From: a virus
Virus record (IMG/VR): IMGVR_UViG_3300047481_002239
Span: 1 to 20,788 of that record
Direction: 5' to 3' (one strand)
Length of the DNA: 20,788 nt
Shown here: piece by piece, positions 1,897 through 19,057 of the stretch
Layout of the letters: the number at the start of each line of letters is the position of its first letter
Numbering within the stretch: the first letter of the stretch is position 1
Made by a program: the position numbers and the translations under genes
The notes under the pieces: generated by a model
Seen by the model: the letters and a program-made list of their open reading frames with translations, nothing else
What the model was told of the DNA's origin: nothing
Databases searched by the model: none

Positions 1897-2364
1897 ATGA
1901 GACCAAACTGGACGGATTATTTTCTAGGAATAGCCAAGATAGTATCGTGTCGTAGTCACGATATTCACACACAGCATGGATGCGTAATAACGGATCAATA
2001 TCATAGAATTCTTGGTGTTGGATACAATGGTTTTCCAAAAGGTATGAATGACGATATTTTACCAACCAGCAGACCCGAAAAATATAAATGGATGATACAC
2101 GCCGAAAGAAATGCTTTGAGTAATTGTGTAATACGTCCAGATAATGGAATAGCGTATGTTACCGGTCAGAGCTGCAATCAGTGCATAATGTCACTATGGC
2201 AAGAAGGAATTGTGCGTGTTGTTATGGCAGATCATCATGGCACTCATCTTTTTGACGAACTTGAAAAAGAACAATTTGATACTTTTTGTAAGCACACTGG
2301 CATAGAAATACTCAGAGTTGATCCAGACTTTTCTTGGTTGAAAAATCTTTGTGGTGTATTATAA
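1897..2364 (+). CDS. dCMP deaminase (cytidine/deoxycytidylate deaminase family)
   Basis: The protein has 155 aa. The zinc-dependent deaminase signature is clear: HAE at 68-70 (zinc ligand His and catalytic Glu) and SCNQC with Cys93 and Cys96 as the remaining zinc ligands. The N-terminal 'RPNWTDYFLGIAKIVSCRSHD' region and 'GVGYNGFPKG' are typical of deoxycytidylate deaminases, including phage ones. The enzyme would convert dCMP to dUMP for dTTP synthesis and fits with the downstream ribonucleotide reductase and the dNMP kinase at 12645; no thymidylate synthase is seen in this window. ATG 1897 is the only start that keeps the N-terminal conserved region. There is no Shine-Dalgarno sequence, but a promoter sits so that transcription would begin at about this ATG. 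A sequence of 102 bases follows before the next gene. Confidence 0.93.
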   Translation: MRPNWTDYFLGIAKIVSCRSHDIHTQHGCVITDQYHRILGVGYNGFPKGMNDDILPTSRPEKYKWMIHAERNALSNCVIRPDNGIAYVTGQSCNQCIMSLWQEGIVRVVMADHHGTHLFDELEKEQFDTFCKHTGIEILRVDPDFSWLKNLCGVL

Positions 2365-2380
2365 TAATAGAATATAAATT

Positions 2381-2442
2381 TTGATTAGTTCCGGAATCAA
2401 GCATGATACATAATCTAATAACTTTTCTAATACCGGAATATC
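2381..2442 (+). promoter_or_regulatory. possible cis-regulatory CCGGAAT repeats upstream of the ribonucleotide reductase gene
   Basis: The 102-base gap before the ribonucleotide reductase gene holds two similar 12-base boxes, TAGTTCCGGAATC-like at 2387-2398 and TAATACCGGAATA-like at 2429-2440, 42 bases apart. The first is part of an inverted repeat (TTGATT 2381-2386 and AATCAA 2395-2400). A CATAAT at 2409-2414 between them could be a -10 box, but no good -35 is at the right distance. A related CTAATTCCGAAA lies at 4663-4674 before the PhoH gene. This may be an operator or a chance match. No B12-riboswitch elements were recognised. Confidence 0.25.
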
Positions 2443-2466
2443 TGTTTTAATCTTTAAGGAGAAAAT

Positions 2467-4659
2467 ATGTCGGCACTCAATGAGCTTCAAAATTATACTT
2501 TTGTTAGTAAATATGCACGTTGGCTAGAAGATAAAAAAAGACGAGAAACATGGAAAGAAGCTGTTGAGAGAGTAAAAAACATGATGCATACCAAGTATGC
2601 TGACAAAAATATTTCTGAAGAAATAAATTGGGCATATGATCTTATGTATAAGAAAAAGGTTCTTGGAAGTCAAAGGTGCTTACAGTTTGGCGGCGATCCT
2701 ATACTAAAGCGAAATGCAAAACTATATAATTGCACAGCAAGTTATTGCGACAGATTAAGATTTTTCCAAGAATGTTTTTGGTTATTACTTTGTGGAAGCG
2801 GCACTGGCTTTAGCGTACAAAAACACCACGTTGCAAAATTACCAACGCTTTCGCAAAACCAAAGAAATAAGGGTGTTAAATATACTGTTGAAGATACCAT
2901 AGAAGGATGGTCAGATGCTCTCGGGGTTTTATTAAGTTCATATTTTACTAAACCATCCGAAAACAAGTTCAAAATTTATCAGGATACTTATGTAGTTTTT
3001 GATTATTCGAATATTAGGCCAAAAGGTTCAGATTTAAGTTCTGGAGTTGGCAAAGCTCCTGGGTTTGAGCCGCTGCAAAATGGTTTAGAAAAAATACGAG
3101 CATTACTTGATAGATGTATAGCCAACGGACAAAAAAAATTAAGACCGATAGATGCCTATGATATTGTTATGCATAGTAGTGACGCTGTTTTGAGTGGTGG
3201 AGTTCGTAGATCTGCTAGTTTGGCATTGTTTAGTGCAGATGATGAAGAGATGGCTAAAGCAAAAACAGGAAATTGGTACGCAGAAAATCCACAAAGAGCA
3301 AGAAGCAATAACTCAGCTCTGCTATTAAAAGACTCAACCGAATTCGAAGATTTTCAAAAACTTATGAATAGCGTAAAAGAATTTGGAGAACCAGGATTTA
3401 TATGGAGCGACTCAACAGAGATGGTTTTTAATCCGTGTTGTGAAATTGCATTATGGCCAGTTAATGAAAAAAATGGAAAGTCTGGCTGGCAAGGTTGTAA
3501 TCTATCAACTATTAATTGTTCTTCTATAGAAGACGAGAAAGATTTTTATGAAAGATGTAAAGCTGCCGCAATCATAGGCACACTACAGGCTGGATTTACA
3601 AAGCTAGAATATCTTGAAAAAGATAGCGAAGAAATATTTGAACGTGAAGCTCTGTTGGGAGTTTCTATGACCGGAATAATGGAAAAACACGAACTAATTT
3701 TAACCGAAAGGGTTTTAAAAAGTGGAGCAAAAATAGCGGTTGATACAAACAAAGAAATGGCAAAAAAAATAGGAATTAATCAAGCTGCTAGAGTAACATG
3801 CTTAAAGCCAGAAGGAACATCTTCTAGTATGCTTGGAACAAGCTCTGGAATCCATCCGCATCATGCTAAACGCTATATAAGGCATGTACAGGCCAATGTT
3901 TTAGAAGCGCCTTTCCAGCACTTTAAAAGTTATAATCCTCAAGCATGTGAAAAATCTCGCTGGTCAGCGAATAACACTGACGAGGTTATTAAGTTCCCCA
4001 TTGAAGTTCCAGATGGATCTAAATTAAAAAACCAGCTTCCAGCAATAGAAATGCTAGAAATAGTCAAGAATACCCAAAAAAATTGGGTACACTCTGGTAG
4101 AAATAGGTTACTATGTACACAAGAGTATCTTTGTCATAATGTTAGCAATACGGTTACAGTCAAGCCAGACGAATGGGATGAAGTAACTAAATATATCTAT
4201 GATAACAGAAAATACTTTGCTGGAATTAGCCTTATACCACAAAGCGGAGATAAAGATTATCCTCAAGCCCCATTTACTACTGTGTATACCAGTAGGGAAA
4301 TTGTTAAGGAGTACGGAGATGCTGCATTATGGTGTTCTGGCTTAATTGAACTTGGACTTAATGTTTTTAGTAATAATTTATGGGCAGCCTGTGATTACGT
4401 TAATCTCAATCAAGCCAAAGAAGATGACGATGAACCTAAACTAAAATTTATAACCAAAATGAAAAATTTTGCTGGTAAATATTTTAATGGCGATACAAAA
4501 AGATTAACATATTGCATGAAAGATGTTTATAACTGGAAAATTTATTGTGATCTATATGACAGTTTTAAGAAAGTAGATTATGTTCAATTACAAGAAACCG
4601 AGGATAATACTGTAGGAATAGAGGAAATTAGTTGTGCAGGCGGCGCGTGTCTAATATAA
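2467..4659 (+). CDS. Adenosylcobalamin-dependent (class II) ribonucleotide reductase
   Basis: The 730-aa protein is close to the length of the monomeric Lactobacillus-type ribonucleoside-triphosphate reductase (739 aa). It reduces ribonucleotides to deoxyribonucleotides using a B12-generated thiyl radical. Conserved pieces are: NCTASYCD with Cys89 (redox pair), FWLLLCGSGTGFSVQ, NPCCEI with Cys324 and Glu326 (thiyl cysteine and catalytic Glu), GCNLS with Cys344 (second redox cysteine), LKPEGTSS (about 446-453), and the C-terminal CAGGAC tail, a mobile CxxxxC thiol pair that reduces the active site. About nine extra residues lie between Cys324 and Cys344 compared with the Lactobacillus enzyme. 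The start is ATG 2467 with AAGGAG at 2456-2461. No class I small subunit or class III activase gene is seen, which fits class II. The enzyme would supply dNTPs for phage replication and depends on host cobalamin. Confidence 0.95.
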   Translation: MSALNELQNYTFVSKYARWLEDKKRRETWKEAVERVKNMMHTKYADKNISEEINWAYDLMYKKKVLGSQRCLQFGGDPILKRNAKLYNCTASYCDRLRFFQECFWLLLCGSGTGFSVQKHHVAKLPTLSQNQRNKGVKYTVEDTIEGWSDALGVLLSSYFTKPSENKFKIYQDTYVVFDYSNIRPKGSDLSSGVGKAPGFEPLQNGLEKIRALLDRCIANGQKKLRPIDAYDIVMHSSDAVLSGGVRRSASLALFSADDEEMAKAKTGNWYAENPQRARSNNSALLLKDSTEFEDFQKLMNSVKEFGEPGFIWSDSTEMVFNPCCEIALWPVNEKNGKSGWQGCNLSTINCSSIEDEKDFYERCKAAAIIGTLQAGFTKLEYLEKDSEEIFEREALLGVSMTGIMEKHELILTERVLKSGAKIAVDTNKEMAKKIGINQAARVTCLKPEGTSSSMLGTSSGIHPHHAKRYIRHVQANVLEAPFQHFKSYNPQACEKSRWSANNTDEVIKFPIEVPDGSKLKNQLPAIEMLEIVKNTQKNWVHSGRNRLLCTQEYLCHNVSNTVTVKPDEWDEVTKYIYDNRKYFAGISLIPQSGDKDYPQAPFTTVYTSREIVKEYGDAALWCSGLIELGLNVFSNNLWAACDYVNLNQAKEDDDEPKLKFITKMKNFAGKYFNGDTKRLTYCMKDVYNWKIYCDLYDSFKKVDYVQLQETEDNTVGIEEISCAGGACLI

Positions 4660-4660
4660 T
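4632..4660 (+). promoter_or_regulatory. possible sigma70-like promoter for the phoH-like gene
   Basis: A perfect TATAAT (4655-4660) overlaps the ribonucleotide reductase stop codon. The base run 17 bases upstream, TTGTGC (4632-4637), matches the -35 consensus only 3/6. The GC-rich spacer AGGCGGCGCGTGTCTAA resembles the spacer of the ssb promoter (AGGCGCGTCGGTGTCG), which stands out in this AT-rich DNA. However, it also encodes the conserved C-terminal GGACLI of the reductase, so the likeness could be accidental. Confidence 0.4.
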
Positions 4661-4684
4661 CCCTAATTCCGAAAGGTATATCTT

Positions 4685-5422
4685 TTGAGAAAAAATAATA
4701 AAAAGTCACCCAAGAAAACCAGAGTACATGATGCTACTGCTAATTTAGTACCAGAAAATTATAACATTACAGCAATAAGAAATACCTTAAAACCAAAAAC
4801 CAAAAATCAAAGCGAATATATAAGAAATATAGCGGAAAACATAATAACTTTTTGTCAGGGTTTGGCTGGATCTGGTAAAACACATATTGCAGTTGGTATG
4901 GCTATAGAGTATCTGCTAGCAGACAAAGTTAAAAAAATAGTCATAACTCGTCCAGTTGTTGAGGCTGGTGAAAAAATAGGGTATTTACCTGGATCGGCGG
5001 AAGAAAAATTAAATCCATACCTTTTACCAATATTAGATGAAATTAATCATTTTATTACAAATGCTCAGTATGTATCTTTAAAAACTAATAATAAGATAGA
5101 AATAGTTCCGCTAGGTCTTATGAGAGGCAGAAATTTTCATAATACTTTTATAGTTGCAGACGAATGTCAAAATGCAACATACGATCAGTTAAAAATGCTA
5201 TTGACACGGATAGGTAGGGATAGTAAAATGGTATTAACAGGGGATATATCTCAATCGGATTTAAGATATGATTATCAGGGTGGTTTTATGTCTATGATTA
5301 AGAACCTCGTAGATTTAGATGGTATAGGATTGTGTTCTCTAGAATCCTCTGATGTTGTAAGAAACCCTATTATTTCTCGTATTTTATCCAGACTGGATAG
5401 CTATGAGCGAAAAAACACATAA
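4685..5422 (+). CDS. phoH: PhoH-like P-loop ATPase
   Basis: The 245-aa protein has Walker A GLAGSGKT (59-66), ITRPVVEAGEKIGYLPG (87-103) with the PhoH signature, Walker B IVADE (156-160), 'QNAT..QLKMLLTRIG' and a sensor-like LTGD. These are the standard blocks of PhoH-family ATPases, common in tailed phages and related to superfamily 1 helicases. Their role is uncertain; an RNA-related or stress role has been proposed for bacterial members. The start is TTG at 4685 (GAAAGG upstream at 4671-4676); no ATG or GTG gives the conserved region, so TTG is the best choice. The gene ends inside the next gene, overlapping by 20 bases. Confidence 0.92.
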   Translation: MRKNNKKSPKKTRVHDATANLVPENYNITAIRNTLKPKTKNQSEYIRNIAENIITFCQGLAGSGKTHIAVGMAIEYLLADKVKKIVITRPVVEAGEKIGYLPGSAEEKLNPYLLPILDEINHFITNAQYVSLKTNNKIEIVPLGLMRGRNFHNTFIVADECQNATYDQLKMLLTRIGRDSKMVLTGDISQSDLRYDYQGGFMSMIKNLVDLDGIGLCSLESSDVVRNPIISRILSRLDSYERKNT

Positions 5423-5972
5423 GCCTTGTCTTATATTAAATGCAGATTATTCACCAATATCTATAATACCATGGCAAAGAGCAATGATATGGTATTTTAG
5501 ATATAGTATTGATAGTAAAAACTTAAGAGCCGAAATATTGGAATATCATAACGATGACACTATAGTTACAACAACCGGTACAACAAAAATACCATCGGTC
5601 ATTAAAACAACTAGATATTTTAAACTTAATAGTGCTCATGTAAATTTTTCTAGAAAAAATCTATTTATAAGAGATGAATATACGTGTCAATACTGTGGTT
5701 ATAAATTTGCTACTAATCAATTAACATATGATCACATTATACCAAAGTCAAAATGGACAAATCCTAATGAATCGCCCACTTCTTGGTTTAATATAGTAAC
5801 TGCTTGCAAAAAATGTAATTCTAAAAAAGGAAACAAAACATTGCTCCAAGCGAACATGAGTCTAAAACAACAGCCATATGCCCCTAAAAAATCAAATAAG
5901 TACTTGCCTATCTATGTTCAGCTTGCTATTATAACTAATATACCGGAGTCATGGAGTATTTATATCAAATAA
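5403..5972 (+). CDS. HNH endonuclease
   Basis: The protein has 189 aa. The C-terminal half carries a complete HNH/zinc module: CQYCG (Cys95, Cys98), YDHIIPKS (Asp110-His111, with His as the general base), TSWFNIVTACKKCN (Asn130, Cys135, Cys138) and KKGN. The N-terminal part (about 8-80: 'CLILNADYSPISIIPWQRAM') is the conserved lead of a standalone HNH family common in phages and bacteria. Such enzymes nick or cut DNA; possible roles include homing, host DNA breakdown or packaging-related cutting, but nothing here decides among them. The start ATG 5403 lies in the end of phoH (20-base overlap), implying translational coupling. The next gene starts two bases after its stop. Confidence 0.92.
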   Translation: MSEKTHKPCLILNADYSPISIIPWQRAMIWYFRYSIDSKNLRAEILEYHNDDTIVTTTGTTKIPSVIKTTRYFKLNSAHVNFSRKNLFIRDEYTCQYCGYKFATNQLTYDHIIPKSKWTNPNESPTSWFNIVTACKKCNSKKGNKTLLQANMSLKQQPYAPKKSNKYLPIYVQLAIITNIPESWSIYIK

Positions 5973-5973
5973 T

Positions 5974-6327
5974 ATGCCAGTCTATTCTTATAGATGCCAA
6001 AAATGTAAAAAAGATTTCGAGCTTTTTTTTTATATAAAAGACTATACAGAAAATCCAGAATGTTCTTTTTGTGGCTCTCGCCTTACTACTAGAAAATATA
6101 TAGAAGATGCGGCAACGCTTATATCTTCTGTGAAAAAGGCTGACAGCGAATTAAAAACAATTGGGGATTTAGCAAACAGAAATAGAGATAAAATGTCAGA
6201 AGATGAGAAGAACAGCTTATACACAAAACATAACTCATACAAATACGAAGAATCCCAAAAAGAATTACCAAAAGGTATGACCAGAATAAAACCATCACAA
6301 AAAAGGGATAAGCCAAAATGGACATAA
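5974..6327 (+). CDS. FmdB-family zinc-ribbon protein
   Basis: The 117-aa protein opens with MPVYSYRCQKCKKDFELF and has Cys8, Cys11, Cys30 and Cys33 in two CxxC knuckles, the pattern of the FmdB/CxxC-CxxC-SSSS regulatory-protein family. The rest (about 45-117) is charged and probably helical or disordered, ending in a Lys/Pro-rich tail. FmdB-like proteins are named as putative transcriptional regulators, but the function of the phage members is unknown. The ATG is two bases after the HNH stop and its stop overlaps the next ORF by 10 bases. Confidence 0.85.
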   Translation: MPVYSYRCQKCKKDFELFFYIKDYTENPECSFCGSRLTTRKYIEDAATLISSVKKADSELKTIGDLANRNRDKMSEDEKNSLYTKHNSYKYEESQKELPKGMTRIKPSQKRDKPKWT

Positions 6328-13223: not shown

Positions 13224-14263
13224 TAGTAACATATTTACGTAGTAGCTCATACGGTACGCATTCGATGTGTCCTATGCAATATTTTATAGAGTATAATTTA
13301 GGCCATAAATCTCCATCGAACAAAAAAGCCGACAAAGGAACTATATGCCATAAAGTTTTAGAAATCTTAGCTTTCATTAAACTGAATCAACAAAATAAGA
13401 ATAAAACATTTGATGACGATATTGTAGGTAAAATTGATATCAAAAAATATAATTTAGACCAAATTATAAAAACAGTATATATGTATTATACGTCTCAATT
13501 CAGGCATCATTCCTGGGAACAAAAAGACTATAAGGACTGTTATGCTTGGATACATAAAGCCTTAGACTATAATAATGGAATGTTTGATCCTAGAAATAGA
13601 GACATAATCCAGCCCGAACAACATTTCGACATAGAAATTAAAAAACCTTGGGCTAACTATAAATATAAAATAAACAAAGAACTATTGTGTGGTAATTTAG
13701 CCATAAAAGGCACAATTGATCTCGTCACAAGTGTTGATAACAAAACACTAGAGGTAATAGATTATAAAACAGGCAGAAGACTAGATTGGGCCACAGGAGA
13801 AGAAAAAACACAAGAAAAGCTTCAAAACGATCCCCAGCTGAGAATATACCACTATGCCATACAAAATCTGTATCCGCACATAGACAATGTGATAATGTCT
13901 ATCAACTTTATTAACGATGGTGGTGTTTTCTCTATATGTTTCGACAAGTCCGACTTGTGCAAAACAGAAAAAATGTTAAAAGATAAATTTGAAATTATAA
14001 AAAATACAAAAATACCCACACTAAATAAAACATGGAAATGTAATAAGTTATGTCATTTCGGAAAAACAACATTTGAAAATACAAATATGTTACCAATTAT
14101 AGAATATAGAGAAAATCAAATAACACAGGTAGGCAAGTTTATGACGAAATGTGAACAAATCCACCATGACATAGGAGTAAAAGGGGTGGAAATTGTTATT
14201 GACGAGTACACTCATCCAGGGTATACTGTAGGTCAATACAAGGCGCCTGGAAGTGTCGAATGA
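13220..14263 (+). CDS. RecB/Cas4-like PD-(D/E)XK exonuclease, probable ATA start
   Basis: This is 347 aa if started at ATA 13220, or 332 aa from ATG 13265. The reading frame upstream of the ATG is open and encodes 'TYLRSSSYGTHSMCPMQYF', the usual opening of RecB/Cas4-like nucleases (a Ser-rich strand then Cys-Pro and Tyr-Phe). An ATG start would remove part of this motif. The core shows GTICHKVLEIL (the conserved H), GTIDLV (Asp, about base 13713), and EVIDYKTG (Glu/Asp and Lys, about 13750-13770) followed by 'QLRIYHYAI'. The C-terminal 'WKCNKLCHFGKT' and a later KCEQ, with the N-terminal MCPM cysteine, might bind a metal or Fe-S cluster, but spacing is not that of Cas4. The enzyme would trim DNA ends in recombination or repair. 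Its stop overlaps the polymerase start by 4 bases (ATGA). Confidence 0.85.
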   Translation: MIVTYLRSSSYGTHSMCPMQYFIEYNLGHKSPSNKKADKGTICHKVLEILAFIKLNQQNKNKTFDDDIVGKIDIKKYNLDQIIKTVYMYYTSQFRHHSWEQKDYKDCYAWIHKALDYNNGMFDPRNRDIIQPEQHFDIEIKKPWANYKYKINKELLCGNLAIKGTIDLVTSVDNKTLEVIDYKTGRRLDWATGEEKTQEKLQNDPQLRIYHYAIQNLYPHIDNVIMSINFINDGGVFSICFDKSDLCKTEKMLKDKFEIIKNTKIPTLNKTWKCNKLCHFGKTTFENTNMLPIIEYRENQITQVGKFMTKCEQIHHDIGVKGVEIVIDEYTHPGYTVGQYKAPGSVE

Positions 14264-16131
14264 ATTACATCCCTCTTCACTGTCATTCTATGTTTTCTCT
14301 TTTGGATGGACTATCAAAACCAGACCAAATAGCACAAAGATGTGTCCAAATAGGCGCAAAAGCTTGTGCTATAACAGATCATGGCAATATAGCCGGTGCC
14401 ATAAAATTCTACCTCTCTATGAAAAAGGCTGGCATAAAACCCATATTAGGATGCGAATTATATATATGTGACCAACACCCATCGATACAAACAAAAGAGA
14501 ATAAAAATCTTAGTCATTTTATTGTATTAGCTAAGAATTATAACGGATGGAAGGAACTCATCAAGATCGTTTCAGCCTCTAACAGACCAGAATATTATTA
14601 CCATAAACCAAGAATAGATTTTTCTACTATAAAAACATTAATAAAAAATAATCTTATTGCCATCACGGGTCATTTGGGGTCAACACTAGCAGATAAAATA
14701 TTGGAGCAATACGAACTCAGATCAGATTGGTTAAACATAGGAATAGAACACATAAACACTTTAAAAGATATTTTTGGAGAAAACAGCGTGTTCTTGGAGG
14801 CACAATTAATAGATGCCGAGAACTTACCAGTTCAAAAAACATTAACCGAAGCCATAAGAGAACTGGGGCAAACAACCAACACAAGAGTAATATGCACCCC
14901 AGACGCACATTACTGCACAAAGACAGATGCTATAGATCAAAGAATTTTATTGTGTAATAATCTTAAAACAACTTTTTCAGATATTAATTTTAAATTAAGC
15001 AATAATGAAAATGTTCCAATGTCTTGTTTTTTTTTATCAGACAACTATCACATACCATCTCAGGAGGAAATGTCTGCTATTCATACGCAATCGGAAATCG
15101 AAAACACAAATTATGTAGCCGATTTGATAGAGGACTATAATATATTGAGCAAACCAAGACTTCCTCCTTTTCCTTGTCCAAATGACATGGATGACGCGGA
15201 GTATCTTCGTGAATTATGTCGTAGAGGATGGAAAGAAAAGATAGCTAATCAAATACCAAAAGAAGAACACCACAAATATATAGATAGAATCAAATATGAG
15301 CTTGATATATTACAGGGTGCTAATCTTAGTAGTTATTTCTTGATAGTACAAGATATTGTGCGTTATGTAAGATCGAATAATTGGTTGCCCGGACCAGGAA
15401 GAGGAAGTGCCTCTGGGTGTTTGGTATCATATCTTATTGGAATTACTTCTATTGATCCTATTAAATATGATCTTATATTTGAGAGATTTTATAATGCTGG
15501 ACGCAATACAGCAGAACATATTTCTATGCCAGATATTGACATAGATGTACCAATCAATAAAAGAGAAGATATTATCAAATATATACGAAACAAATACGGT
15601 TCAGATAAAGTATCTCAGATGATAACCTTTAATACAATTAAGGGTCGTGGGGCCTTGAAGGATGTTTTAAGAGTATATGGTAACATATCTTTTGATGAGA
15701 TGAATAATATAACAAAAAATATACCTGACGAAGCGAAAATAGCCGATGAGCTCCAGGAAATGAGAGAAGAAACAGGTGAAGCTTCGATTATAAGATGGGC
15801 ACTAGAAAATAATGCAGAAAAACTCAAGGAATGGTGTTACACCGACGAGAACAATGAGATGCAAGGACCACTTGCCAAAAGATTCGAACAAGCCATAAGA
15901 CTTGAGGGAACTAAATCTAATCAGTCAAAACACGCCGCTGGTATAGCTATTAGTTCCGAGCCACTGGAAGAGATATGTCCTATGGTGTATGACTCAAAAA
16001 ACAACCAAATTATAGCTGGAATGGAAATGCAAGATTTGGAATTTATTGGTATAATAAAATTTGATGTTCTAGGAATAGCCATGTTGGACAAAGTAATGAC
16101 CATATCAGAAATACTCAAAAAAGGAGAATAG
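14260..16131 (+). CDS. dnaE: DNA polymerase III alpha subunit, N-terminal half (PHP + palm)
   Basis: This 623-aa protein covers the first half of a bacterial-type C-family polymerase. The PHP domain (1 to about 270) has HCH (His7, His9), Asp16, TDHG (Asp40, His41), GCE (Glu66), His86 and a TPDAH pair, so its metal site looks intact. The palm contains GPGRGSASG (near 15391-15417) and MPDIDIDV with Asp427 and Asp429. The third catalytic aspartate is Asp602 in IKFDVLG. The chain stops 21 residues later at TAG 16129-16131, just before where the fingers should begin. Full-length relatives (about 1160 aa) continue there; this half plus the half at 17003 sum to about 1162. It cannot work alone and must join the second half. 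ATG 14260 overlaps the nuclease stop by 4 bases. Confidence 0.93.
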   Translation: MNYIPLHCHSMFSLLDGLSKPDQIAQRCVQIGAKACAITDHGNIAGAIKFYLSMKKAGIKPILGCELYICDQHPSIQTKENKNLSHFIVLAKNYNGWKELIKIVSASNRPEYYYHKPRIDFSTIKTLIKNNLIAITGHLGSTLADKILEQYELRSDWLNIGIEHINTLKDIFGENSVFLEAQLIDAENLPVQKTLTEAIRELGQTTNTRVICTPDAHYCTKTDAIDQRILLCNNLKTTFSDINFKLSNNENVPMSCFFLSDNYHIPSQEEMSAIHTQSEIENTNYVADLIEDYNILSKPRLPPFPCPNDMDDAEYLRELCRRGWKEKIANQIPKEEHHKYIDRIKYELDILQGANLSSYFLIVQDIVRYVRSNNWLPGPGRGSASGCLVSYLIGITSIDPIKYDLIFERFYNAGRNTAEHISMPDIDIDVPINKREDIIKYIRNKYGSDKVSQMITFNTIKGRGALKDVLRVYGNISFDEMNNITKNIPDEAKIADELQEMREETGEASIIRWALENNAEKLKEWCYTDENNEMQGPLAKRFEQAIRLEGTKSNQSKHAAGIAISSEPLEEICPMVYDSKNNQIIAGMEMQDLEFIGIIKFDVLGIAMLDKVMTISEILKKGE

Positions 16132-16133
16132 TT

Positions 16134-16304
16134 ATGAGATTTGTAGATTTACAAATAGACACAAAGTTTAAACTAGACAATCAAGAGTATATAAAAATAC
16201 CAGAAGAAAGAATCAGTTGTTGCAAAGTCTTAAATGCAAAGATAATATCAACTAATGAAAAGGTTCAAATAGTACCCATAACAGAAGTAGAAGTGATAAA
16301 CTAA
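16134..16304 (+). CDS. Small 56-aa protein between the polymerase halves
   Basis: This is an ORF of 56 codons with ATG at 16134 and TAA at 16302-16304. It begins MRFVDLQIDTKFKLDN, continues with 'EYIKIPEERISCCKVLNAK' and ends in VQIVPITEVEVIN. It has a strong ribosome-binding site (AAAAAGGAG ending 7 bases before the ATG, inside the end of the upstream polymerase gene) and is placed in the overlapping gene chain three bases after the polymerase stop and three bases before the exonuclease ATG. The pattern of short strands suggests a small beta-barrel (SH3/OB-like) fold, often seen in small phage proteins. The role is unknown. A link to the polymerase or exonuclease is suggested only by position. 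Confidence 0.75.
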   Translation: MRFVDLQIDTKFKLDNQEYIKIPEERISCCKVLNAKIISTNEKVQIVPITEVEVIN

Positions 16305-16307
16305 TAA

Positions 16308-17000
16308 ATGATAAACTATAATAAAATCTGTGTTTTTGATTTCGAAACGGATGGTTCTGATCCTTCGGTTTGTAGCCCAGTTCAATTGGCCGCACTAATG
16401 ATAGATCCGATCACATTAGATGTGATACCAGAGTCAGAATGTAATATTTTTTTTAAACCCGAAACTCTGGAAAAAGATGAAAAGTATATTTATACAACAG
16501 ATATTCTGGATTTTCATGCAAAAGTTAGGGGCTCTACCAAAGAATTAATATTAAAATCCTGGTTAGAATATCCGTCACAACAACAGTCTTGGAAATTGTT
16601 TGTGGAATATCTTAATAAATATCATTCTAGATCTTCTAAAAAAAATCATTTTAGTGCCCCAATAGCTGCTGGATACAATATAAATAGATTTGATCTAAAG
16701 ATAGTTGATAGATTAAGTATAAAATATAATAACGTAACAAAAGAAAATAACAGTTGTTTATTTTATCAGAGAGATGTTCTGGACATTATGAATATAGTAT
16801 ATTATTGGTTCGAGCATAACACGGATCTGAAGAGCTATTCACTTGATTCTTTAAGAGATTATCTTGGTATTTCAAAAGATGGTGGTCACGACGCTCTTAA
16901 AGACGTTAAAGATAGCGCAGAAATTCTTATCAGATTTCTAAAACTTCATAGAAATTTGTCAGAGAAGGTTAAGTTTAAAAATTCTTTTTGTAAATCTTGA
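16308..17000 (+). CDS. DEDDh 3'-5' exonuclease (DnaQ/epsilon-like)
   Basis: The 230-aa protein has the three exonuclease motifs: Exo I DFETDG (Asp11, Glu13), Exo II 'AGYNINRFD' (Asp), and Exo III HDALKDVKDSAEIL (His and Asp) near the C-terminus, identifying the DEDDh class. It resembles the epsilon proofreading subunit of DNA polymerase III and would remove mismatched 3' ends. In bacteria epsilon binds the PHP domain of alpha; here its gene sits between the gene for the PHP/palm half and that for the fingers half, which suggests it is part of this polymerase. The ATG at 16308 follows the 56-aa gene by three bases. The gene is followed at once by the second polymerase half. Confidence 0.92.
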   Translation: MINYNKICVFDFETDGSDPSVCSPVQLAALMIDPITLDVIPESECNIFFKPETLEKDEKYIYTTDILDFHAKVRGSTKELILKSWLEYPSQQQSWKLFVEYLNKYHSRSSKKNHFSAPIAAGYNINRFDLKIVDRLSIKYNNVTKENNSCLFYQRDVLDIMNIVYYWFEHNTDLKSYSLDSLRDYLGISKDGGHDALKDVKDSAEILIRFLKLHRNLSEKVKFKNSFCKS

Positions 17001-17002
17001 TT

Positions 17003-18622
17003 ATGCAAAAACAATTCAAATATTCTTGTGGGTGTTCATTTACTCTCTTGGAAGAAGAGAAAAATTTGATTAATTTTGATCCAATATCAGAAAACATTAA
17101 CCTGGATTGTCAAAAAACCTGGGCATTAATATCTTGCGGAAATACAAAAGGCTGTTTTCAGCTAGAGTCTAGACTTGGTAGGTCTATGGCAAAAAAATTA
17201 AAACCATCTAACATTGAAGAATTATCTGGACTTATAAGCATTCTAAGACCAGGATGTCTGGAAGCTTATAGGGATGGTAAAAGTGTAAGCAATCATTACA
17301 TAGATAAAAAGAATGGTCTGGAATCTGTAGACTATTATCACCCATCTCTACAGCCAATTCTAAATAAAACATACGGAGAAATGATATATCAGGAACAAGC
17401 TATGGAAATAGCGAAAATTGTAGCTGGATTTGATCTCAAAGAAGCTGATAATTTAAGAAAAGCTATCGGAAAGAAAAAACCAGAGGAAATGGCCAAACTA
17501 AAGCTGAAATTCTTGGAAGGAGCAGAAAGAAAGAAAATAATTACAAAAAAAGAAGCAGAAGAAATTTTTGGATGGATAGAAAAAAGTCAAAGATATTCTT
17601 TTAATAAGAGCCATGCTATTAGCTATGCTTACAATGCTTATCTGTCCGCTTATGCAAAAGCGCATTTTCCCAAAATATTTTTCGCTTCTTATCTCAGATA
17701 TGCAAAAGATAAGATAGATCCAAAGTCAGAAATAAAAGAACTGGTACAAAATGCGTCAGAAATGGATATAAATATTAACATTCCAGATCTTAGAATAAAG
17801 AATAAACTATTTGTATTAAAAAATAATAAAATTTATTTTGGACTAACAGATATAAAAGGATTCGGGGAATCGGTTTTTAATAAGTTGCTTAAAATAATAG
17901 ACGAAAAACAACTTGACATAGACAATATGTTATGGCCAGAAATATTAACAAAAATTTTGCTCGATATAAATTCTACAGCCGGTAAATCTTTAATAAAAAG
18001 TGGAGCTCTAGATTTTTGCCAGAAAAGCAGATGTTCAATGTTATTTGAATACGCTGGATTATCTGAATTAACAAAAAAAGAAATCAATAATATTAATGAA
18101 TATCCAGAAAAATTTAAAAAGGTCAATGATTGCTTAAAATATATATTAGACTACAGTAAATTAACACAAAAAAGAAAAATAACAATAGAAAATATCTTAA
18201 AGAGTATTATCAATCCACCTTACTCTATGGAAGATACAGCAGAATGGATATCTGACGCAGAAGATGAAGTTTTAGGTTGCTCTATAACTTGTTCCAAAGT
18301 TGATATGTATGACATAAGTATGACTAACTGTAATTGTAAAGATATAAAAACTACTCTTTCAAAAGATAATCTAATATTATGTGCAGAAATAGATAATATA
18401 AATATTGTAAAAACAAAAAATGGTAAAAATCCCGGATCAGAAATGGCTTTTGTAACTTTATGCGATAGCTTTGGCCTGGTAGACAATATTGTATTTTTCC
18501 CTGATTCATATAAGCAATACAGAAATATACTCTTCTTAAATAATGTTATAGTTATTCAGGGTAAAAAGAATAAGACTATGGATAGTATTATAGTAGAAAA
18601 GGCATATCTACCCAAGTCTTGA
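17003..18622 (+). CDS. dnaE: DNA polymerase III alpha subunit, C-terminal half (fingers to OB fold)
   Basis: This is a 539-aa protein from ATG 17003 (TTG 16997 is an alternative two codons upstream). It begins with a Cys-rich lead (Cys9, Cys11, Cys36, Cys45) that has no counterpart at the known split points. It then enters alpha-subunit sequence exactly at CFQLESRLG (51-59), followed by ISILRPG, 'HPSLQPILNKTYGEMIYQEQAMEIA', 'RKAIGKKKPEEM' and SFNKSHA (199-205). The later part has the helical C-terminal region, a helix-hairpin-helix-like 'YFGLTDIKGFGES', and a C-terminal OB-fold-like stretch (about 425-530). It supplies the fingers and DNA-binding parts but none of the three catalytic aspartates. 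The intein site used in cyanobacterial DnaE (before CFNKSH) is intact and intein-free. A promoter for ssb overlaps its stop. Confidence 0.92.
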   Translation: MQKQFKYSCGCSFTLLEEEKNLINFDPISENINLDCQKTWALISCGNTKGCFQLESRLGRSMAKKLKPSNIEELSGLISILRPGCLEAYRDGKSVSNHYIDKKNGLESVDYYHPSLQPILNKTYGEMIYQEQAMEIAKIVAGFDLKEADNLRKAIGKKKPEEMAKLKLKFLEGAERKKIITKKEAEEIFGWIEKSQRYSFNKSHAISYAYNAYLSAYAKAHFPKIFFASYLRYAKDKIDPKSEIKELVQNASEMDININIPDLRIKNKLFVLKNNKIYFGLTDIKGFGESVFNKLLKIIDEKQLDIDNMLWPEILTKILLDINSTAGKSLIKSGALDFCQKSRCSMLFEYAGLSELTKKEINNINEYPEKFKKVNDCLKYILDYSKLTQKRKITIENILKSIINPPYSMEDTAEWISDAEDEVLGCSITCSKVDMYDISMTNCNCKDIKTTLSKDNLILCAEIDNINIVKTKNGKNPGSEMAFVTLCDSFGLVDNIVFFPDSYKQYRNILFLNNVIVIQGKKNKTMDSIIVEKAYLPKS

Positions 18623-18682: not shown

Positions 18683-19057
18683 ATGATAATGAATATTACT
18701 ATTTTAAAGGGTAATTTAGCTAGGGATCCGGAATTAAGAGAAGTTCAAACAAACGGAAAATCAACGTTTGTTGTGAATTTCACTATAGCAGTATCAAGGG
18801 AGTATACCAAAGCAAGTGGTGAAAAGGACAAGATAACGACCTTTGTTCCATGTGAAGCATGGGATTCTGGTGCAGAAATGATCGGTCGCTCCTTAAAGAA
18901 GGGGGATCCCGTTATGGTCGAAGGATCGTTGCGCAACGATTCTTGGGAAAAGGATGGGGTAAAACATAATTCTCTAAAAATTAGAGTAAATAATTTTTCT
19001 AAGATTACAAAATTAGCATCTCTAAAATCGCAATCGTCAGAAACTGTTGCTTTTTAA
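18683..19057 (+). CDS. ssb: Single-stranded DNA-binding protein (SSB, OB fold)
   Basis: This is 124 aa from ATG 18683, or 122 from ATG 18689 (AAGGAG at 18673-18678 is 4 or 10 bases away). The classic SSB opening 'MNITILKGNLARDPELREV' (split as MNITILKGNL and ARDPELR) is followed by 'VVNFTIAVSREYTK', 'FVPCEAWDSGAEM', 'KKGDPVMVEGSLRNDSW' and 'NSLKIRVNNF', the strands of a bacterial-type OB fold. It coats single-stranded DNA at the fork and interacts with the recombinase and its loader. The C-terminal tail is short and ends SETVAF: a terminal Phe but almost no acidic residues, unlike the DDDIPF tip that recruits partners in bacteria. It has its own promoter and a downstream hairpin, so it forms a separate transcription unit. 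Confidence 0.93.
   Translation: MIMNITILKGNLARDPELREVQTNGKSTFVVNFTIAVSREYTKASGEKDKITTFVPCEAWDSGAEMIGRSLKKGDPVMVEGSLRNDSWEKDGVKHNSLKIRVNNFSKITKLASLKSQSSETVAF

Follow-up and report, generated by a model that had tools for sequence, protein, structure and literature searches.

A probable two-chain DnaE-type replicase, cut between palm and fingers, in large tailed phages

Can the alpha subunit of a replicative DNA polymerase III be divided between two genes and still serve a virus as one enzyme? This question is raised by the IMG/VR virus record IMGVR_UViG_3300047481_002239, a 20,788-base stretch of DNA (the window) in which the gene for this subunit, dnaE, is present as an N-terminal and a C-terminal half, with genes for a DEDDh exonuclease and a 56-amino-acid (56-aa) protein in the gap. 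A first-pass annotation had drawn attention to this arrangement; its observation was confirmed, as the open reading frames (ORFs) and Pfam domains were those it had claimed, and its interpretation was supported. The reading favored here, with a probability of about 0.8, is that the locus encodes a non-covalent two-chain DnaE-type replicase of a large tailed phage, whose genes share one tight operon and whose probable proofreader is the exonuclease. Five genes lie head to tail on the + strand between 14260 and 19057:

14260..16131, + strand: N half of DnaE, 623 aa, with PHP, palm and thumb (Pfam, 51-row alignment, AlphaFold2 model)
16134..16304, + strand: small conserved protein, 56 aa (S56), recognized at the same place in 92 of 107 related loci (alignment)
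16308..17000, + strand: DEDDh 3'-5' exonuclease, 230 aa, candidate proofreading subunit (RNase_T, phrog_192, invariant residues)
17003..18622, + strand: C half of DnaE, 539 aa, with its ATG at 17003; 26-aa extension with a CGC motif, fingers, helix-hairpin-helix (HhH) and OB fold (Pfam, 51-row alignment, model)
18683..19057, + strand: single-strand binding protein (SSB), the next gene of the operon (Pfam SSB, E=9e-25), which follows the C half in relatives too

The N half was matched in Pfam by PHP (E=5e-36) and DNA_pol3_alpha (E=1.5e-74), and the catalytic residues D427, D429 and D602 were invariant in an alignment of 51 relatives. It had been proposed that this half contains PHP and palm with all three catalytic aspartates and stops 21 residues past the last of them, and the domain matches and the alignment bear this out. 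The N half therefore has the features of a C-family polymerase that are expected of it, namely a PHP domain and a pol-beta-like palm with three aspartates. An AlphaFold2 model built from the 51-member alignment (predicted local distance difference test score, pLDDT, 82.7) aligned over residues 1-623 with residues 4-576 of E. coli DnaE (Z score 35.0, root-mean-square deviation 3.6, 559 residues). The glycine-rich active-site loop at residues 379-386 had a pLDDT below 50 in this isolated model, in line with an active site that the docking fingers would complete. All nine metal-ligand positions of the PHP domain are kept (H7, H9, D40, H41, E66, H86, H138, D215 and H217), with histidine in place of cysteine at 138; the two N-terminal histidines are present in 47 of the 51 rows and the other ligands in all 51. 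As this metal site looks intact, PHP may have nuclease activity of its own beside the exonuclease, and one polymerase may thus be served by two nucleases.

The C half supplies what the N half lacks. Pfam matched it to DNA_pol3_finger (E=4e-46) and HHH_6 (E=9e-7) and gave a weak OB match, and the fingers motifs were invariant in the alignment of relatives. Its AlphaFold2 model (51-member alignment, pLDDT 83.9) matched E. coli DnaE from residue 572-579 up to residue 1074 (Z scores 14-17). The fingers, HhH and OB parts of a C-family polymerase are therefore all represented, the OB fold weakly in Pfam and within the aligned part of the model. New material is confined to 26 extra residues at the N terminus of the C chain, which are predicted to form a hairpin and carry the CGC motif. 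Among the cysteines of the C half, C9 and C11 are present in 49 of the 51 members and C36 in all of them.

The position of the break was given by two comparisons. In the profile alignment the N half ends at Thermus residue 634 (about residue 576 in E. coli) and the C half resumes at E. coli residue 585, and the two models tile E. coli DnaE without a gap (4-576, then about 577-1074), which places the cut just after the palm. The break thus corresponds to E. coli DnaE 576/577, in the link from the last palm helix to the start of the fingers. Both comparisons agree with the earlier proposal of a cut between palm and fingers, away from the cyanobacterial split-intein site. Pfam found no intein or Hint domain in either half, as had also been proposed, and a break of this kind without an intein leaves non-covalent assembly as the way in which the halves would have to be joined.

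The phage itself is represented by one contig only, which leaves room for reading the break as a sequencing or assembly error or as the mark of a decayed pseudogene. Related stretches were sought in IMG/VR with the N half (54 found), the C half (233) and the exonuclease (110). Among the fetched loci, 107 with a distinct exonuclease sequence carried the N half, the exonuclease and the C half, and only such loci were tallied. The same break was present in 107 of 107, which excludes an assembly error and confirms the gene order in the related contigs that the first-pass annotation had proposed to check. Those loci in which the 56-aa gene was not recognized mostly keep a gap of equal size. The median ratio of nonsynonymous to synonymous substitution (dN/dS) between close pairs was 0.047 for each of the two halves and 0.033 for the exonuclease, and it reached 0.19 in the 56-aa protein; both halves are under strong purifying selection. 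Since 107 independent loci share the break, dN/dS is low for the N and the C half alike and each large contig has one copy, error or decay can be set aside as having next to no probability.

The large contigs were also informative about other polymerases. Each of the 22 contigs of 120-231 kilobases (kb) held exactly one fingers domain and one palm, the palm being split by an insertion in two of them. No family A or B polymerase and no second or full-length dnaE was found in these 22 contigs, which are linear and may be incomplete; a full-length dnaE elsewhere in the same genome is what the first-pass annotation had named as evidence against its interpretation. A terminase domain was detected in 12 of 18 contigs, pointing to tailed phages; a T4-type Gp23 capsid gave no match, though the controls gave none either. 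By Pfam, the neighbors of the dnaE halves include a DnaB-like helicase, a Toprim primase, a RecA-like protein, a deoxynucleoside monophosphate (dNMP) kinase, a B12-type ribonucleotide reductase and a Cas4/PD-DExK-like nuclease, surroundings that identify a replication module. Along the N half, the 56-aa gene, the exonuclease and the C half, the median intergenic gaps in the related loci are 2, -8 and -4 nucleotides, which suggests translational coupling; such packing favors co-assembly.

These observations suggest a mechanism in which the N and C chains, made from one tightly packed operon, would dock non-covalently along the normal palm-fingers interface and thereby rebuild one active site. 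Non-covalent assembly is proposed here by analogy: the two pieces of PolB in Aeromonas phage 25, 43A and 43B, are purified together and have polymerase activity, and NrdA of Aeh1 retains full activity although split (PMC2988022). In those T4-like cases reassembly was shown by experiment, albeit for another polymerase family and with another inserted gene. The co-encoded DEDDh exonuclease would probably act as an epsilon-like proofreader. That the 56-aa protein and the CGC extension might stabilize the new joint is only a guess.

Several observations weigh against a dedicated two-chain replicase. The CGC extension is missing in three loci (L033-L035) and is thus not essential. A simple motif scan found no conservation of the canonical clamp-binding sequence Q-x-x-[LMI]-[FL] in the C half, and with regard to the tau-binding C terminus, nothing in the C model aligns beyond E. 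coli DnaE residue 1074. Unrelated genes stand between the exonuclease and the C half in some relatives, which makes adjacency weak evidence for an obligate complex. Finally, no Pfam match to a beta clamp (N domain) or to the clamp-loader delta' subunit was found, in contigs that may be incomplete. The lack of a detected clamp and clamp loader, together with the nine intact ligand positions of the PHP site, would also suit halves that do not work together as a replicase, the phage being copied by the host polymerase while the halves serve separate roles, for example with the N half as a PHP nuclease. However, the catalytic residues of the palm and the fingers are conserved together in 51 sequences, and the locus lies among genes for a helicase, primase, RecA-like protein and SSB with no other polymerase detected, so separate roles are considered quite improbable.

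The evidence for the exonuclease as part of the replicase comes from its family and its gene order. It matched RNase_T in Pfam (E=4e-10) and phrog_192, annotated 'DNA polymerase exonuclease subunit' (E=6e-19). The D-x-E, second D and H-x4-D pattern is present, and the DEDDh residues D11, E13, D129, H194 and D199 are invariant in 50 sequences, indicating that the exonuclease is probably an active proofreader. Gene order and family suggest that it probably binds this polymerase. In four loci (L101, L102, L104 and L199), 1-3.6 kb of other sequence separates the exonuclease from the C half, which marks the C half as an independent gene; where these inserts were read they held membrane-protein-like ORFs, an FkbM methyltransferase, a DUF1559 pseudopilin and ThyX.

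The 56-aa protein has three invariant residues, F12, C29 and C30, the last two forming an invariant Cys-Cys pair. It had no meaningful Pfam match and no relative of solved structure, and 11 of 50 members matched phrog_2183, a family of unknown function. The suggestion of a three- or four-part polymerase is plausible. A stronger version, in which the N half, the C half, the exonuclease and the Cys-Cys protein would form one obligate stoichiometric core, the 56-aa protein and the CGC extension would bridge the palm-fingers break as a metal-bound clasp, and inteins and endonucleases would repeatedly invade the gene, is regarded as unlikely.

Inteins do occur elsewhere in the polymerase genes of relatives. 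In two inspected loci (L044:7974-11045 and L131:4350-5800) the N half is interrupted after residue 382 (GPGRG/SAAG) by an N-intein piece, an endonuclease-like ORF and a C-intein piece; an interruption at this residue was present in 9 of the 107 loci. In L204 (9200-10750) a split intein whose pieces flank a LAGLIDADG gene cuts the C half near FNK/SHAV, and the N half of the same locus has a further insertion after residue 382. L185 (8902-9798) has a cis-intein in its C half at RPG/CLEA, with a weak HNH match. The endonuclease ORFs enclosed by split inteins in relatives are of the Vsr-like or LAGLIDADG type. Freestanding endonuclease-like ORFs stand exactly at the junction of the N half and S56 in L131 (6443-7123) and L014 (2124-2810), the L131 copy being without a Pfam match. 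The gap in the window holds no homing endonuclease gene, and endonuclease-like ORFs were present in the gap in a few relatives only.

The split inteins and the cis-intein in these relatives raise the prospect that the halves are joined covalently into one full alpha subunit, through a split intein or RNA trans-splicing. Against this, no intein domain is present at the palm-fingers break, and the 21 residues after D602 and the 26 of the C extension are shorter than the intein fragments of the relatives. Each half is also a separate ORF, complete with start and stop, and in some relatives the exonuclease and the C half are kept apart by unrelated genes. As for an RNA route, a group I intron or other RNA element was considered and rejected: Rfam gave no match in the window, nor in eight insertion-bearing relatives, and Pfam showed intein and endonuclease domains in the inspected inserts. 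Covalent joining is accordingly given very little credence.

The same interruptions bear on how the two-chain polymerase arose. Split inteins that enclose an endonuclease ORF have repeatedly interrupted the polymerase of relatives, and in L131 and L014 a freestanding endonuclease-like ORF occupies the junction between the N half and S56. It is therefore plausible that dnaE was broken by a homing-endonuclease or fractured-gene event and that the intein or endonuclease later disappeared or gave way to the exonuclease and 56-aa genes. No intein remnant or intermediate was found at the palm-fingers break, however, and a simple stop-plus-restart or an insertion would look alike, so this origin is held tentatively, at slightly less than even odds.

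Two further interruptions were seen in the palm region. In L132 (4149-7130) an insertion with a long ORF lies at about residue 428, just before PDIDID. In the gut record L216 (MT835494), positions 2001-6290, DnaE is broken inside the palm, between query residues 410 and 425, and its pieces are separated by a DNA methylase and an HNH/NUMOD4 ORF.

Comparison with known systems helps to define what is distinctive about the locus. Cellular DnaE (E. coli, Thermus and M. tuberculosis) has the same domains, order and catalytic residues, and both phage models align with it end to end; the phage pair differs in being two chains, in giving no match past E. coli residue 1074, in showing no conserved canonical clamp-binding motif in a simple scan, and in the added CGC extension. 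In broken genes of the fractured-gene kind, as in cyanobacterial split DnaE, a dnaE-type gene is also divided, and the relatives have such a layout elsewhere in the same gene. Dassa et al. (2009) reportedly described fractured genes with split inteins, and the intein-interrupted relatives show that layout. The palm-fingers break is unlike these in being free of inteins, in having an exonuclease and a 56-aa gene instead of a homing endonuclease, and in having termini too short for intein pieces.

Among phages, the DnaE of the actinophages Rope, Beyoncage, MacGully, Peregrin, OverHedge and Suzy is encoded by two adjacent genes, with a small ORF between them in two of the phages. Their break separates PHP from the whole core (the first piece matches the query to about residue 245), whereas here it separates palm from fingers and an exonuclease gene lies in the gap. 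In a 2021 survey, group 2.2 jumbo phages were described as having a minimal split Pol III alpha, the two proteins of which are thought to reconstitute the enzyme (PMC7824862). That split Pol III lacks the other Pol III domains, is encoded at distant loci and occurs together with a PolB; in contrast, PHP is present here, the halves share one operon and no PolB was found in the 22 large contigs. The passages on splits in two surveys that treat the C family (PMC3919608, PMC12926913) do not mention a cut between palm and fingers. Split phage DnaE is thus already known, and no report of this particular cut and layout was found, although an earlier description is possible.

If the two-chain reading is correct, a C-family catalytic core tolerates division between palm and fingers and can stay divided across a clade as the only polymerase detected. 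A large uncultured clade of water-dwelling bacterial viruses would then carry a split replicase, one that is directly testable and would provide a natural system for studying how multi-subunit polymerases arise from broken genes. Engineered Pol III could also be split usefully at the palm-fingers break. With relatives that carry split inteins, cis-inteins and stand-alone endonuclease-like genes, the clade is suited to the study of gene breakage and its persistence.

Some minor observations concern affiliation and host. The closest protein in the phage collection had about 33% identity across the N half, and there was no isolate relative. The record giving the best match in that collection, MT836494 (L218, 'Bacteriophage sp.'), was rejected as a near phage relative: its unsplit DnaE is flanked by CvfB and phosphofructokinase, so that it looks like bacterial chromosome. 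The same layout as in the window was present in a GTDB contig (L208) assigned to a Chitinophagia metagenome-assembled genome. The inserts between the exonuclease and the C half in L102 (4355-7847) and L104 (5371-7835) include the DUF1559 pseudopilin (E=4e-41). Pseudopilins of this type are common in Planctomycetota; the domain is thus a possible hint of a Planctomycetota host, in conflict with the Chitinophagia assignment of L208.
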